DNA from: Clostridiales bacterium
GTDB lineage: Bacteria; Bacillota; DSM-16504; Desulfitibacterales; JAICDB01
Length of the DNA stretch: 64,000 nt
Reading direction: 5' to 3'
NCBI GenBank assembly: GCA_020063565.1
Contig: JAICDB010000011.1
Coordinates: forward strand, 62,001-126,000
Shown here: piece by piece, positions 4,431 through 46,277 of the stretch
Position numbering within the stretch: the stretch's first letter is position 1
Layout: each line of letters begins with the position of its first letter
Notes under the pieces: model-generated
Seen by the model: only the letters and a program-made list of their open reading frames with translations
Told to the model about the DNA's origin: nothing
Database searches by the model: none
Position numbers and translations under genes: made by a program

Positions 4431-4514
4431 AAAGAATACACCAGAATTTGTTCAAATTTTCTATTGAAATAATTTGCCAGTGGTGATAGAATTATTTCAA
4501 AAGTTAATAGTTTG

Positions 4515-4785
4515 ATAGCAAGTGAAAGTGTGTAGGTCAAAAAGGATTTTTTGAACTACCTCTTAAAGGGAATCCGGTGTAAATCCGGAGCGGTCCCGCC
4601 ACTGTAAGGGGGAGCCTTCTTGCTTTTGGCCACTGTCCAGGCACTTAACTAGCATTGAAGTAAAGAAAGACTTAGTATAAAGGTTGTTCTATTTCAGTGT
4701 TAGTCATCAAAAAACTATGGTTAAGTGCCGGACGGGAAGGCGCAAGATCGGGCTGTGAACCTGAGCCAGGAAACCTGCTTGTTAT
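4515..4785 (+). promoter_or_regulatory. Cobalamin riboswitch with an expanded peripheral arm (leader of cbiJ-cbiMNQO)
   Basis: The core blocks GGGAATCCGGTG, GCGGTCCCGCCACTGT and GAGCCAGGAAACCTGC are the same as in the nrdDG leader. P1 pairs 4515-4522 with 4778-4785. Between them the peripheral domain is enlarged by about 100 nt. GTCC/GGCACTTAAC (4635-4649) pairs with 4720-4733, and inside it 4650-4660 pairs with 4693-4703, making a long rod. The TTTGTACCC segment after the aptamer is complementary to the terminator's 3' arm, giving the same switch design as at nrdDG. The strong similarity of the two leaders suggests duplication. Confidence 0.92.
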
Positions 4786-4843
4786 TTAAGCTATTTGTAC
4801 CCACGGTCGATGGGGAAAGCGGTATTAGTTGAGATGGGATAAT

Positions 4844-13170: not shown

Positions 13171-14316
13171 TTATATACCTTTTTTCCAGTCGAAAAGAAT
13201 GCAGTTTAAGACTTTAGCTGCAGTCATGAAATTTTTTTCTCTAATCTCTTTTTTTCTGGGAATTGCTATACAAAAACTGTCACCATCTGTTATCCTGGCC
13301 GGTATTTGTTCTCCACTGATGGAAATCCATTTATTAACCAATGAAGCAGGTATCTCAGGTGTAAAGGGCCTTTCAGAAATTTCGCTCCAGAGGGCAGTCC
13401 AGGCTCTGGGAACGACTTGCCATGGATTGTAGCCGCCTCCACCTGTGCATAACAACTTTCCTTGGGTAAATTCATGTGCAAAACTATGAACCCTTTTGTA
13501 TATTTCCAGAAAACCATCCATTGTAAGGGTTAAATGTGTTAGCGGGTCAAGGATATGGCCGTCGCACCCGCATTGGGCAATTAGAATGTCGGGTTTAAAC
13601 TCCTTTAACAGGGGATAAACTACATTATCCAGTACATGCAGGTAAGAATCGTTTTCAGAAAATGCTTCCAAAGGAATGTTGACTGCATAACCGTATCCGG
13701 CATTTTTTCCCCTCTCAAAAATAGTGCCTGTACCCGGAAAAAGATAGCGTCCTGTTTCATGGATGGAAATTGTAAGCACTTGTGGATCATTGTAAAACGC
13801 ATTTTGCACTCCATCCCCGTGATGGGCATCTAGGTCCAAATAAGCTATCCGCAAGTTATAATTTTCCTGAATGTACTTTATTGCAATTACCAAGTCATTG
13901 TACACACAAAAACCGCTGGATAGTTCCCTTTGTGCGTGATGCAGTCCTCCGCCTATATTAAAGACGTGATCATAATTTTCTGAAAGTAGCAAATCCGCTG
14001 CCATTATGGTACCGCCAACAATAAAAGAAGCAGCTCTGTGGATTTCCGGTGTTATAGTATTATCTTCACTTGCCAGACCGTACTTGTTATCTCTGATGCA
14101 TCGGGAAACTGCCTGGATATATTCGGGTGAGTGGAAAAGCTGCAGATCTTTTTCTGTTGCCATTTTTGGCTCCAAAATATCTTTTTCTGAAAGAATTCCC
14201 AATGTGCCAGAAAGCTCCAGTGTTAGCTCCAGCCGCCGGGAATTAAAAGGGTGATCTTCTCCGAAACCGTATTTAAGATAAGCCGGTGTATAAATTAGAC
14301 TAACTTTTTTACTCAC
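13171..14316 (-). CDS. acuC: Acetoin utilization protein AcuC (class I histone deacetylase-like)
   Basis: 381 residues from the GTG at 14316, which has AGGTG six bases upstream; the GTG nine bases earlier is part of that ribosome-binding site. Zinc-hydrolase motifs of the arginase/deacetylase fold are present: NIGGGLHHA, YLDLDAHHGDGVQ (zinc and charge-relay residues) and CTGGGGYNP near the C-terminus. In Bacillus subtilis AcuC removes the acetyl group that AcuA puts on acetyl-CoA synthetase. The divergent acsA here carries the matching lysine motif. Its start overlaps the end of acuB. Confidence 0.92.
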   Translation of the reverse strand: MSKKVSLIYTPAYLKYGFGEDHPFNSRRLELTLELSGTLGILSEKDILEPKMATEKDLQLFHSPEYIQAVSRCIRDNKYGLASEDNTITPEIHRAASFIVGGTIMAADLLLSENYDHVFNIGGGLHHAQRELSSGFCVYNDLVIAIKYIQENYNLRIAYLDLDAHHGDGVQNAFYNDPQVLTISIHETGRYLFPGTGTIFERGKNAGYGYAVNIPLEAFSENDSYLHVLDNVVYPLLKEFKPDILIAQCGCDGHILDPLTHLTLTMDGFLEIYKRVHSFAHEFTQGKLLCTGGGGYNPWQVVPRAWTALWSEISERPFTPEIPASLVNKWISISGEQIPARITDGDSFCIAIPRKKEIREKNFMTAAKVLNCILFDWKKGI

Positions 14317-22551: not shown

Positions 22552-23695
22552 TTACCTTATTTTTAGATTGTTTTTCAACGCAGCCCACATATCATCCGAA
22601 ATTAATCCTAACCTCCAGAGGGCAATACCCTGCAGGTCATATCTCTTTGCAATACTTATTTTAGTAGGTATACTTTCTGCTGTCTCACTGTGGGCAGAAA
22701 TTCCGAGAAGCAGCTTTTTCGGTGGAACGCTTTGTATTGCCATTTCAACAGCCTGTTTGACCCGGGAGACTGGTTCCGGCCCAGGCTCCTCTTTGTAATC
22801 GTAAGCCATAATAATTATTTTGTCTGCTAATTCACCTAATGCCCCGTAGTCGTACCCTTTATAAGCACTATTGGGGGCATGAAGGGTCAAGGTTCACTCC
22901 TCCATACTGTTTGGCTTCCTCAATTATATTATTTACAGCATTTTTCATGCCTTTTTCATTACTTAAAAAATTATAAACCGGAGAGTTTGTCATATAGACA
23001 ACCATTTGCGTTTTCAGATCAAAGCTTTCAGCAGCTTCCAGTACCTTTTCCCAGCCAGCCGGTTTTTTCCAGCCCGAGTTACTGTTAGTAAGGAGATTAC
23101 CTTTTTCATCTAAAGTATACCAACCCAGAGCAATTTCACTCACCACATCAGTATTACCTTTGCCGGTTTCGGGGAAATCATTTTCGAATAAATCACTCCA
23201 GCTACTTGTACCTTTTTTAGGGTCTCCTAGAGCATAAAAACCTAGTACCTTCATTTTTGTAGGTGGTGAAATAATTTCCACACTGTGAGTGGCCGCAATC
23301 CATTTCACCTGACAACCGAAACTTTCGCTGAAGAAACGTAATGGTATGAGTGTTCTGCCATTTAAAATTACCGGGGACACTTCTAATTGGAGAGGTTTTT
23401 CATTATGTAAGACAATCTTGTTACCGATTTGCAGCCGGATACTGTTTTCCCCAGCATATGCCCCTACAGTTTGCGTTGAAGCATCCCAGGTAACGTGCAC
23501 ATTTAAGGCTTCCGCTATAGAACGGAAGGGGACTAATGTGCTTCCATTTATTATTACAGGTTGTACATCAAATGTAACAGGGAGCCCGTCAAGTAAAACT
23601 GTGATCCCTTGAGAATTTTCTTGCGCCGCTGCTGGAAGAGGAAGACCGCAATTTAAAACTATCATAATAGCAAGAATAAGTAATAGGCGTTTCAT
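22552..23695 (-). pseudogene. Broken secreted protein: copper-amine-oxidase-like domain plus GH18 (chitinase-like) domain
   Basis: It reads from the ATG at 23695 (GGAGTGG upstream): signal peptide (about 1-23), then two short stalk-type repeats of the copper amine oxidase N-terminal domain (TLVPFRSIAEALNV and TLIPLRFFSESFG), then the start of a GH18-like domain (KVLGFYALG). At YGGVNLD the frame breaks after a few codons. The following frame resumes at LHAPNSAYKGYDYG and runs to the end. About 50 residues expected between them, including the catalytic DxE region, are missing. A deletion with a frameshift explains this, so the enzyme is almost surely inactive. Confidence 0.8.
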
Positions 23696-24199
23696 AAAGA
23701 CCACTCCATAGAAAAGTATTGAATGGCTATTTAGAAGAGGATAATTTATTTATTCGTTGTAAAATCAAATAATCCTCTTCCCGGTTTCTATATTTCAAAT
23801 GAGGAAAAATCCAAATCAGGTACCGTCAATACTGGGCTATAAATTAATTTATAATAGAATACACTAAAAAAATAGATAGAAATGGATATTTATTCAAGGG
23901 AATTTGGGGAAGTGCCCGTGGGTTTTAAATTACAAGCTTTTTATGTTGTTTTTCAATACACTCCACATCTCGTAATAAGGAGTGAGTGTTTTTTTGCAAC
24001 AAAAGGAGCATAAAATCTCCATATCTTATGCAAAATATTTCTCGAAAAATATTTTTTATATGAAAAGTAAATAGAAAAAACACACATGTCATAGAATAAA
24101 GTGGTTTCCTGTAAATGGAAATTAATTAAAGTAAATTGTATCATGTAAGGTGGGTAAGGAGAATAGGACCGAAAATTCTTCACTTAGGGTGATGGAATT
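23696..24199. other. Intergenic region without a recognisable gene
   Basis: 504 bp of AT-rich DNA. A 76-codon open frame on the minus strand (23953-24183) has no ribosome-binding site and composition typical of noncoding DNA. A TATAAT at 23850-23855 lacks a good -35. No riboswitch, tRNA or repeat was recognised. Confidence 0.4.
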
Positions 24200-24514
24200 G
24201 TGCAAGTAAATTATGCACTAAATTTAGTGATTAAAATAATTATTATGTTAAATTTGTGGGATCTAATTCTGACATACTTTGGTCTTAAACTGGAATTTAT
24301 TCATGAAGTTAATCCAATAATGAATATTTTATATAATTGTAATCCAGTGATCTTTATAACTATTAAAGCAATTATTCCAACTATCTTATTAATATTCATT
24401 AGCGGACATGTTCATAAAATAAAATATTGCGAATATCCCCTGATGTTTCTTTTTTTGCTTTACAGTGGGTTGATGATTTTGCATTTAAGGTGGATATATA
24501 TTTTTGTATCTTAA
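24200..24514 (+). CDS. Small membrane protein, DUF5658-like
   Basis: 104 residues from a GTG at 24200 with AGGGTGATGG upstream. Three membrane helices are predicted. LNLWDLILTYFGL and EVNPIMNILY match the pattern of DUF5658 proteins (N-x-x-D-x-x-x-T and E-x-NP-x-M). Function is unknown. It stands alone ahead of the c-di-GMP-II leader. Confidence 0.55.
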   Translation: MQVNYALNLVIKIIIMLNLWDLILTYFGLKLEFIHEVNPIMNILYNCNPVIFITIKAIIPTILLIFISGHVHKIKYCEYPLMFLFLLYSGLMILHLRWIYIFVS

Positions 24515-24633
24515 ACCCGTAAAAACCAGAAAAATGTAAAAAAACTGTAGTAAGTAATACCAAATAACCTGCAGTAATTGACATATTTTACCTGTTTTTT
24601 CCTTTATAATGGGGGTGTACTCAAAGAAAAATA

Positions 24634-24706
24634 GGGGTGGGCTATGAAGTGCGTTTCAAAACTGGGCACCTGAAACGTACAGAGTCAGTGGTGCAACCGA
24701 ACCCGG
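24634..24706 (+). promoter_or_regulatory. c-di-GMP-II riboswitch
   Basis: The sequence follows the c-di-GMP-II aptamer pattern: ATGAAG, then CTGGGCACCTGA, a short hairpin, GAGTCAGTGGTGCAACCGA and a C-rich end. GCACC (24666-24670) pairs with GGTGC (24690-24694), CTGA (24670-24673) with TCAG (24685-24688), and the G-rich 5' flank can pair with the ACCC at the end. A terminator (24700-24732) starts within the aptamer's last bases, so ligand binding and termination are mutually dependent. It precedes a signal peptidase gene. A TATAAT at 24605-24610 is a candidate -10 box. Confidence 0.78.
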
Positions 24707-24732
24707 CCTTTGCGAAGGATCGGGTTTTAATT
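24700..24732 (+). terminator. Terminator of the c-di-GMP-II riboswitch
   Basis: AACCCG (24700-24705) pairs with CGGGTT (24721-24726), with an inner CCTT/AAGG helix, followed by a T-rich tail. It overlaps the 3' end of the aptamer. Confidence 0.75.
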
Positions 24733-24788
24733 TAACTCAGGGATATGTCCGGCTATTATGTTTGATATTAAAAAGTGGAGGAATTTTA

Positions 24789-25307
24789 GTGATTTCTAAG
24801 TCGTTGCGCTGGTCTGTAAATGTTGCTAGTATGTTACTGGTAATTGTGCTTGTACTAACACTGTATAATGTTTGCCAGGTCAGAAAACACCCTGCAAAAG
24901 TCCCATCAATATGCGGCTATAATTTTTTCTCAGTCCTTTCCGGAAGCATGCAACCGTTGATAGAGGCCGGGGATTTGATTGTAACGAGGAATGTGAATGC
25001 AGAAGAATTGCGAATAGAGGATGTGATAACTTACAGAGTAGATGAAGGATTTTTAGTTACCCATAGGATTGTTGATATAGCATATAAAAACGGAAAGTTA
25101 TTTTTTAAGACTAAAGGGGATGCAAATAAGTATCCGGATAAAAAACCGGTTTTATCTGAGCAGTTGGTAGGTACATTTGTATTTAAGATTCCTAATTTAG
25201 GGTATGTTGCCAATTTTATTAGTACTAAAATATGCTTTATGATCTTTATAATTTTTCCAATAACAATTATAACAATTACAGAGTTTAAAAACAGGCATGA
25301 TAGTTGA
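24789..25307 (+). CDS. sipW: Signal peptidase I, SipW/ER type
   Basis: 172 residues from the GTG at 24789, with GGAGG seven bases before. It has an N-terminal membrane helix (about 8-28), the catalytic serine in SGSMQP (Ser53), the domain segment EAGDLIV, and VTHRIVDI with His92 in place of the lysine general base of ordinary bacterial enzymes, which marks the SipW/archaeal/eukaryotic-ER type. A second membrane helix lies at the C-terminus (about 150-168). It removes signal peptides from exported proteins; in Bacillus SipW processes biofilm matrix proteins. No obvious substrate gene is next to it. Expression is probably set by the c-di-GMP leader. Confidence 0.88.
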   Translation: MISKSLRWSVNVASMLLVIVLVLTLYNVCQVRKHPAKVPSICGYNFFSVLSGSMQPLIEAGDLIVTRNVNAEELRIEDVITYRVDEGFLVTHRIVDIAYKNGKLFFKTKGDANKYPDKKPVLSEQLVGTFVFKIPNLGYVANFISTKICFMIFIIFPITIITITEFKNRHDS

Positions 25308-25534
25308 AAATCAAAATAAGGTTAAAGAGGTGGTAATTGACTTGGTAAGTACCATTCCGATTTTGTAAATTGGATAAACTACTGCCAATTACAGGTGAAA
25401 TCTGGTCTAAAAGGGTTAGAACTGTTAATAGATAAAGTGCATAAATTTTTTCAACTTTTCAGGCTACAAAATTTTATATTATTTCATTCTTAAGGTAAAA
25501 TATTAAAAAATACACTTTTTAAAGGGTGATAAAT

Positions 25535-26464
25535 TTGAACTTCGCAAAAAACATTTCCGACCTCATCGGCAAAACTCCCCTAGTAAAAATCAATAAGCTG
25601 GATGGGGCAGAAAACGCTATAGTCCTGGCCAAAATGGAATACTTCAATCCCGGAGGCAGCGTAAAAGACAGGATTGCCAAAAACATGATCGAGGTTGCAG
25701 AAAAGGAAGGAAAATTGAAAGAAGGCGGTATGATAGTTGAACCTACCAGCGGCAATACCGGGGTAGGACTAGCGTTAATGTCTGCAGTCAAGGGCTATCG
25801 TCTCGTTCTGACAATGCCTGAAACAATGAGTGTTGAAAGAAGGAAGCTTTTCAAGGCACTGGGAGCGGAAGTGGTACTTACTCCGGGCGATAAAGGAATG
25901 AAGGGAGCTATAGAAAAAGCTAAAGAAATAGTACGGGAAAATCCTAATTCTTTCATGCCCCAGCAATTTGAAAACCCTGCCAACCCGGAAATACATAGGC
26001 AAACCACAGCGGAGGAAATCTGGGAAGATACCAACGGTAAAGTGGACATAGTCGTAGGTGGTGTCGGCACCGGTGGAACGATAACCGGAATAGGTGAAGT
26101 ATTGAAAAAACGCAAACCGGATGTAAGGATAGTTGCAGTAGAACCGGCGGAATCTGCTGTTCTTTCGGGTGAAGACCCCGGTCCGCATAAGATACAGGGA
26201 ATCGGGGCAGGTTTTGTGCCGGAAATATTTAACAGTGAAGTAGTTGATGAAATAATTAAGGTAAAAAGTGAAGAAGCCTTTGCTGTTTCCAGAAAACTTG
26301 CCAGGGAAGAGGGACTTTTAGTTGGAATTTCTTCGGGAGCGGCCATGCATGCCGCTTTGGAAATAGCAAAAGAGCAGGATAAGGTGAGTAGCAGGACCAT
26401 AGTAGTTATTTTGCCTGATACGGGAGAAAGATATTTAAGCACACCGCTTTTTGAAGAAGTTTAA
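25535..26464 (+). CDS. cysK: Cysteine synthase (O-acetylserine sulfhydrylase)
   Basis: 309 residues. The TTG at 25535 is preferred because AAAGGGTGA lies just upstream; the GTG at 25526 is inside that site. It is a PLP enzyme of fold type II with GGSVKDR (PLP-binding Lys44), the TSGNTG substrate loop, the [12 protein letters not shown] phosphate-binding loop and the C-terminal GISSGAA. It makes L-cysteine from O-acetylserine and sulfide. There is no S-box or T-box upstream in the 227-bp gap. Sulfur-import genes lie elsewhere in the window (39631-41060). Confidence 0.95.
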
Positions 26465-30842: not shown

Positions 30843-31122
30843 AAGTAAAAATAAATGTAACAAATTGATAAAAACTATGAAGGAGAAAAGTAAGTTAACT
30901 TCGACTTTCCAGGGAGAAGGTGCCATTGACTGGAAGCACCTTTAATGTTTGATTTAACTGAAGTTCTCTCCGGAGTTGCCGGTTGAAAACTTTTGAGTGA
31001 GTAGGCTGAGCCGTAGTCTTCCAACGTTACATGGAAGGGGTATCGGAACATTAGTTCCCGTATCTTGAGTTGAGTGGATTTGTTTTTCAGAGCAAATCAA
31101 CTAGAGTGGTAACGCGGTAAGC

Positions 31123-31160
31123 AAAAGCTTTTCGTCTCTAAATGGCGAATAGCTTTTTTT
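31123..31160 (+). terminator. T-box terminator 1
   Basis: 31123-31134 pairs with 31146-31157 with one mismatch, followed by T. It competes with the antiterminator containing the first T-box. Confidence 0.85.
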
Positions 31161-45836: not shown

Positions 45837-46039
45837 TGTGTAATCCCTGCTTAAGACAGGGTTTCACCTCCTGCACAAGTTTCTTCAATTATTTCTTATT
45901 GTTTATTACTTACAAGAATATTATTCTTTTAACAAAATTTTTATTATAAATAAAGGAATTTATCCCTGGTCGGTAGAATCCTTAAATTAAGAAATTTGAA
46001 ATTTTGTTATTGACCTGACACAAAATTGAATAAAAGGAT

Positions 46040-46208
46040 AAGTTAGGTGCCTCGCATGAGGTTAAAAGGGAATCGGGTAACAAGCCCGAGCGGTCCCGCC
46101 ACTGTAACTGGGGACGACCTTTACATTATGTCACTATTTCGGGTTGAGTGCCGGGATGGGAAGGCGTAAAGGAAGGAAGATCCAGGAGCCAGGAAACCTG
46201 CCTAACTT
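46040..46208 (+). promoter_or_regulatory. Cobalamin riboswitch (leader of the main cobalamin operon)
   Basis: P1 is AAGTTAGG (46040-46047) with CCTAACTT (46201-46208). The core includes AAAAGGGAATCGGGT, GCGGTCCCGCCACTGT and the B12 box GAGCCAGGAAACCTGC. Its peripheral arms and expression platform differ from those of the two leaders at 1541 and 4515, so it is an independent lineage. A strong terminator (46278-46311) follows. Confidence 0.93.
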
Positions 46209-46277
46209 GTATGCGTAGCAAGACTCCTTCGAGGAAAGGTAGGTCCGCGCGGTATTACAATACCACGAGTATACCTA

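Follow-up and report, generated by a model that had tools for sequence, protein, structure and literature searches.

A predicted c-di-GMP-II riboswitch precedes a SipW-type signal peptidase gene in a Clostridiales bacterium and recurs ahead of TasA/camelysin-type operons in relatives

The window analysed here is a 64,000-nt stretch of contig JAICDB010000011.1 (assembly GCA_020063565.1, positions 62,001 to 126,000 of the forward strand) from a Clostridiales bacterium; positions are counted from its first nucleotide. The locus of interest consists of a c-di-GMP-II aptamer followed on the same strand, after 77 nt and with no gene between, by a gene for a SipW/ER-type signal peptidase. Its features are as follows.

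24605..24610, + strand: possible -10 box TATAAT (sequence reading; weak)
24628..24711, + strand: c-di-GMP-II riboswitch aptamer (RF01786 covariance match, pair check, covariation)
24701..24725, + strand: terminator-like hairpin sharing the P1 3′ strand (-11.8 kcal/mol; present too when the leader is folded to minimum energy)
24775..24781, + strand: likely ribosome-binding site GTGGAGG (sequence reading; 7 nt before the GTG)
24789..25307, + strand: SipW/ER-type signal peptidase, 172 aa, GTG start (TIGR02228, invariant residues, SEC11A/C)

An initial annotation had named this aptamer and proposed a covariance search as a check. With the RF01786 model run over the whole window, the aptamer was matched at E 1.5e-11 with 62.5 bits, above the gathering score of 53.5, so the element is real, and the start given for it in the annotation, 24634, lies six bases inside the match. 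The assembly, 2.36 Mb in 29 contigs and 80.8% complete, gave no other RF01786 match. Checked against the Rfam structure, standard pairing is complete in P2 (3/3), P3 (8/8) and the pseudoknot (5/5), and 7 of the 11 P1 pairs form, as three outer A-U pairs, then four mismatches, then an inner GGGU/ACCC. In an alignment of 40 aptamers, the window's included, set on the RF01786 structure, the covariation score was 0.677, compared with 0.240 for shuffled alignments (0 of 500 as high) and a maximum of 0.190 for slid controls, and 82.7% of cells were paired. Upstream, a TTGACA at 24578-24583 was read 21 nt away from the TATAAT at 24605-24610; a promoter scan restricted to spacers of 16-18 nt gave no entry for this TATAAT, which is a weak candidate.

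The hairpin at 24701-24725 has the sequence ACCCGGCCUUUGCGAAGGAUCGGGU, followed by UUUAAUUUA, and its U-rich tail extends to about 24734. The terminator had been described as overlapping the aptamer, rightly, since in the predicted folds the 5′ arm of the hairpin is the 3′ strand of aptamer helix P1; aptamer and expression platform are thus predicted to be mutually exclusive, with one strand serving both. The ligand-free predicted fold is the terminator state, at -35.1 kcal/mol compared with -23.2 kcal/mol when P1, P2 and P3 are forced, pseudoknot and ligand contributions being in neither value. Since the terminator state is favoured without ligand and the P1 strand is shared, the predicted logic is OFF by default and ON with c-di-GMP. 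Among 16 leaders from 15 loci, the P1 3′ strand is the 5′ arm of a hairpin in 12, the window's included (in L090 the overlap is read within a longer hairpin, from its inner portion), the hairpins of L099 and L100 take deeper aptamer bases, L094 yielded no terminator, and the first of two aptamers in L098 was credited with none. The overlap, which most of these relatives have, likewise points to a switch predicted to be ON with c-di-GMP. Against a strong switch stand the interrupted P1, a U-run broken by AA after the hairpin, the absence of the window hairpin from the output of a simple terminator scanner, and a whole leader that folds no better than shuffled sequences (z -1.11).

The assignment of the downstream gene to the SipW/ER type, also made initially, agrees with its score of 117.8 bits against TIGR02228 (SipW/archaeal/ER-type signal peptidase; cut-off 51.85) and with its top PDB matches, SEC11A and SEC11C, which are catalytic subunits of the signal peptidase complex. 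The model for the Bacillus SipW equivalog, NF046067, gave 127.6 bits, under its cut-off of 190, and the protein is therefore called SipW-type rather than a Bacillus SipW equivalog. Ser53, His92, Asp111 and Asp117, which presumably have catalytic roles here, are invariant among 16 aligned peptidase sequences; Ser53 and His92 align with SEC11A, giving a Ser/His pair in place of Ser/Lys.

The next gene after the peptidase (25526-26464, PALP match) encodes a PLP enzyme, which we take to be of the cysteine-synthase type. There is no substrate-like ORF within the window, so that the initial remark that no substrate gene lies nearby was correct, and neither in the window nor in the assembly does a TasA/camelysin or SipW-cognate protein lie beside the peptidase, as in a SipW-TasA matrix operon. 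A search of the genome for TasA-like SipW substrates, suggested along with the annotation, also returned none: TIGR04088, PF12389 and a substrate profile of 25 proteins had no match at E up to 1 in the 80.8% complete assembly. As a fifth of the genome is missing, substrate absence is not proven. The profile of the coiled-coil protein found in relatives (alignment A7) gave four weak matches in the same genome (best E 4.9e-4), all to the coiled-coil part at positions 270-367, and these were rejected as spurious. The assembly holds 13 GGDEF matches and two housekeeping-type signal peptidases; c-di-GMP can therefore probably be made in this host, and the window peptidase can probably be a specialist.

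Other features of the window were recorded. Just upstream of the riboswitch, a gene at 24200-24514 (+) encodes a small membrane protein of the DUF5658 family (PF18902, E 3.4e-19); it was considered as a partner and dropped, as no recurrence was seen by eye in the neighbourhoods of relatives. On the minus strand, at 22552-23704, an ORF with a Copper-amine-oxidase-N domain overlaps a GH18 fragment that lies in another frame, as if one gene had been split by a frameshift. Cobalamin riboswitches occur on the plus strand at 1531-1724, 4506-4796 and 46028-46219, and a T-box leader at 30868-31142 (+).

The recurrence of the pairing was investigated in a phylum sample of 398 genomes, of which 101 had SipW-like matches and 107 matched RF01786. 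Besides the window's genome, at least six (G030, G041, G175, G340, G358 and G380) carry RF01786 on the same strand within 600 bp upstream of SipW, where 0.0057 pairs are expected by chance among the 26 other genomes with both; chance co-location was rejected on this comparison. At the genome level there is no enrichment (27/101 vs 107/398, odds ratio 0.99), and the link between SipW and RF01786 is therefore local. In a sample of four genomes at the order and class level, RF01786 was absent from the other three.

Used alone as the query, the window protein retrieved no relatives; an alignment of seven proteins, run against named genomes, gave 216, of which the best 80 loci were kept. In these 80, a covariance model built from 40 c-di-GMP-II aptamers (R1) made 19 hits in 15 loci besides the window, and 14 of these, from 12 loci, share the strand of the peptidase match and precede it by 43-337 bp, an arrangement with a probability of about 5e-20 under uniform placement if the loci are treated as unrelated. 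Rfam cut-offs confirm 11 of the 12 (L085, L086, L093, L094, L095, L099, L120, L062, L064, L065 and L066, the last four taken as the same contigs as L087, L088, L090 and L098), L065 under the sister family RF03169. The aptamers of L100 and L133 were found by R1 and are below the Rfam cut-off, and the class II match of L137 rests on R1, not Rfam. Two further cases from the phylum search, L063 and L067, bring the number to 14 besides the window. Named carriers include Anaerosolibacter carboniphilus DSM 103526 and Sporosalibacterium faouarense; in Geosporobacter ferrireducens the aptamer is 2.9 kb upstream. A quick tree was made of 84 peptidases, without eight of the 80 loci, which had no usable ORF, and with 11 rows added from further genomes. 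In it the window peptidase falls in a group of 21 rows (support 85, not starred) to which 13 of the 15 aptamer-adjacent peptidases belong.

Of the 14 aptamer-linked relatives, 13 have an ORF matching a SipW-type substrate profile after the peptidase, the exception being L067. Since the profile was itself built from such neighbouring ORFs, 25 of the proteins were rechecked with independent libraries: across several loci, TIGR04088 (SipW-dependent-type signal peptide) matched 24 of these sampled neighbours, PF12389 (camelysin) 23, and the TasA model NF046066 15, with a score under its cut-off in the one case for which a score is given. A third gene type in these operons carries SLH domains and a fourth is coiled-coil, by scans of two proteins each from alignments A8 and A7. 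From this content we infer that the relatives' operons would be matrix-fibre operons with a cell-wall anchor. In L067 a small zinc-ribbon-like protein follows SipW (868-1095), and one also follows the c-di-GMP-II aptamer of L068 (7602-7754). Further c-di-GMP-II aptamers lie near SipW operons at L097:4045-4128, L099:11584-11667 and L137:4833-4917, where the genes after them were judged by eye to be probable sensor kinase and response-regulator genes, an order that recalls cmrRST of C. difficile.

Class I aptamers were also found around these operons. With the limit set at E below 1e-8, a second model (R2) detected c-di-GMP-I aptamers in 16 of the 80 best loci out of 216, 23 hits in all, some distant from the peptidase or on the opposite strand; Rfam confirms class I in 15 loci (ten, plus two, plus three shared contigs), and the match in L118 rests on R2, not Rfam. 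Weaker c-di-GMP-I matches in L098 and L142 (E 0.013 and 0.031) were dropped. An aptamer of either class is present in 26 of these 80 loci. The peptidases of L144 and L103 are preceded by a class I aptamer, and the two SipW-bearing genomes of the window's own order, G001 and G003, have such aptamers both within the operon and around it. Beside SipW matrix operons, transglutaminase-like genes (PF01841) occur after one or two c-di-GMP-I aptamers; those matched by Pfam are listed below, and a further one, in L098, was recognized by inspection only.

L086:5628-6584, PF01841 transglutaminase-like gene
L065:11130-12005, PF01841 transglutaminase-like gene
L097:2980-3867, PF01841 transglutaminase-like gene
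L062:1352-2164, PF01841 transglutaminase-like gene
L076:1544-2341, PF01841 transglutaminase-like gene
L077:1240-2061, PF01841 transglutaminase-like gene

In L065, L086 and L097 a class II aptamer adjoins the transglutaminase-like gene. By analogy with PPEP-1 in C. difficile, it is possible that the transglutaminase-like gene and the matrix operon are wired in opposite directions. Separately, L063 has a class I and a class II aptamer in one leader before SipW (13398-13684, minus strand), about 117 nt apart; this double leader may be the product of a deletion, since the sister contig L065 has a transglutaminase-like gene between its two aptamers.

The observation of an aptamer, an overlapping hairpin and a SipW-type peptidase at this locus is confirmed. 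We infer, with a probability of about 0.7, that the c-di-GMP-II riboswitch is a transcriptional ON switch for a SipW-type peptidase that probably matures TasA/camelysin-like precursors. At low c-di-GMP, as folding suggests, the P1 3′ strand would join the terminator and the transcript would stop before the peptidase gene; with c-di-GMP bound, P1 would keep this strand, no terminator would form and the peptidase would be made, a geometry that recurs in relatives. The peptidase would then mature SipW-type precursors which, judging from relatives, are most probably surface or matrix fibre proteins resembling TasA/camelysin and would appear in the sessile, high c-di-GMP state. In the window's genome the substrate genes are not adjacent and may lie in the missing fifth, be too diverged or have been lost, and the peptidase may be read as a SipW of the matrix type whose partner genes have been lost or are encoded far away. 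Across the sequences compared, support for the putative c-di-GMP control of surface-protein export is strong. The initial proposal that c-di-GMP ties this export to the motile/sessile switch gains from relatives, in which the arrangement heads TasA/camelysin-type operons, and is left short by a genome in which the substrate class was not found. As for its other part, direct control of a peptidase, in the relatives the switch would govern the whole peptidase-plus-substrate operon, not the peptidase alone.

The chief competing explanation, which we consider a serious though clearly less probable one, is that aptamer and peptidase are the remnant of a matrix operon from which this lineage lost the fibre genes; the switch may still work, on a peptidase that now has no dedicated substrate or only aids general secretion. 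The PLP enzyme as the next gene, the lack of any substrate family in the assembly, the position of the peptidase in the tree among operon-type peptidases, and L067, which is likewise aptamer-linked with no TasA-like neighbour, all fit such a relic. It is harder to reconcile with an intact ORF with all conserved residues and an intact aptamer core, because of which both appear to be under selection, and the searches that found no substrate covered an assembly only 80.8% complete.

The remaining alternatives concern the switch itself. Repression of the peptidase by c-di-GMP has a precedent in the class I switches of C. difficile, which are OFF (available text of PMC11477304). Nothing found in the leader itself favours repression; the mutual exclusion of P1 and terminator in the window and most relatives speaks against it, as do the class II switches, described as transcriptional ON switches in C. 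difficile (same text), and we consider it improbable. That riboswitch and peptidase are chance neighbours, the one not controlling the other, would suit the weak terminator, but the shared strand, the short gap with no intervening gene and a pairing that recurs far above chance expectation leave this the least probable of all.

A wider reading, for which we would give even odds, is that SipW-TasA-type matrix operons across Clostridia are recurrently under c-di-GMP riboswitches, which control them directly (class II, with class I taking this place in other lineages) and gate fibre export and assembly at the RNA level with no transcription factor, that a neighbouring transglutaminase-like enzyme preceded by class I is perhaps oppositely wired to remodel or release the matrix, and that in the window the system is pared down to the export peptidase, the one component left under the switch. 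If true, one RNA element would link c-di-GMP to protein-matrix fibres in many anaerobic Firmicutes, offering a route from messenger to biofilm matrix that can be tested with reporters, and the export peptidase would be a control point, since a conditional peptidase would gate all SipW-dependent proteins together. Several named isolates are among the carriers, and the wiring is therefore testable. The aptamer class and the peptidase family are known, and the wiring looks undescribed in the searchable literature, though riboswitch surveys may list the pairing. In the open-access literature no link between a c-di-GMP riboswitch and SipW or TasA was found, nor was one in the available text of PMC2614493, PMC7395162, PMC11477304 and PMC9481103; "peptidase" as a word start is absent from the main text of PMC11477304.

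The window peptidase belongs to the same family as those of the SipW-TasA system of Bacillus subtilis and the SipW-BsaA system of Clostridium perfringens, and its relatives are accompanied by the same type of substrate; unlike those systems, the window has no substrate gene. Control differs as well: sipW-tasA of B. subtilis is controlled by SinR, whereas a c-di-GMP riboswitch is predicted in the window. TasA and BsaA depend on SipW, and PsipW of C. perfringens was reported to require the BsaRS two-component system (available text of PMC7395162). The four c-di-GMP-II switches of C. difficile 630 (CD2831, CD3246, cmrRST and the type IV pilus operon) belong to the same aptamer family as the window's, and in the part of PMC11477304 available they are described as transcriptional ON switches, the logic predicted for the window's, with surface and biofilm-related targets; the window's differs in that its target would be an export signal peptidase, a kind of target that was found nowhere else in the open-access literature. 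A further likeness in C. difficile is the wiring of PPEP-1 and its adhesins, in which an enzyme acting on surface proteins is likewise tied to c-di-GMP by a riboswitch and class I and class II act in opposite directions on enzyme and adhesins (PMC11477304, same part). There the enzyme is a secreted protease that releases adhesins and is under an OFF switch, whereas the SipW-type protein is an export peptidase under a switch predicted to be ON.
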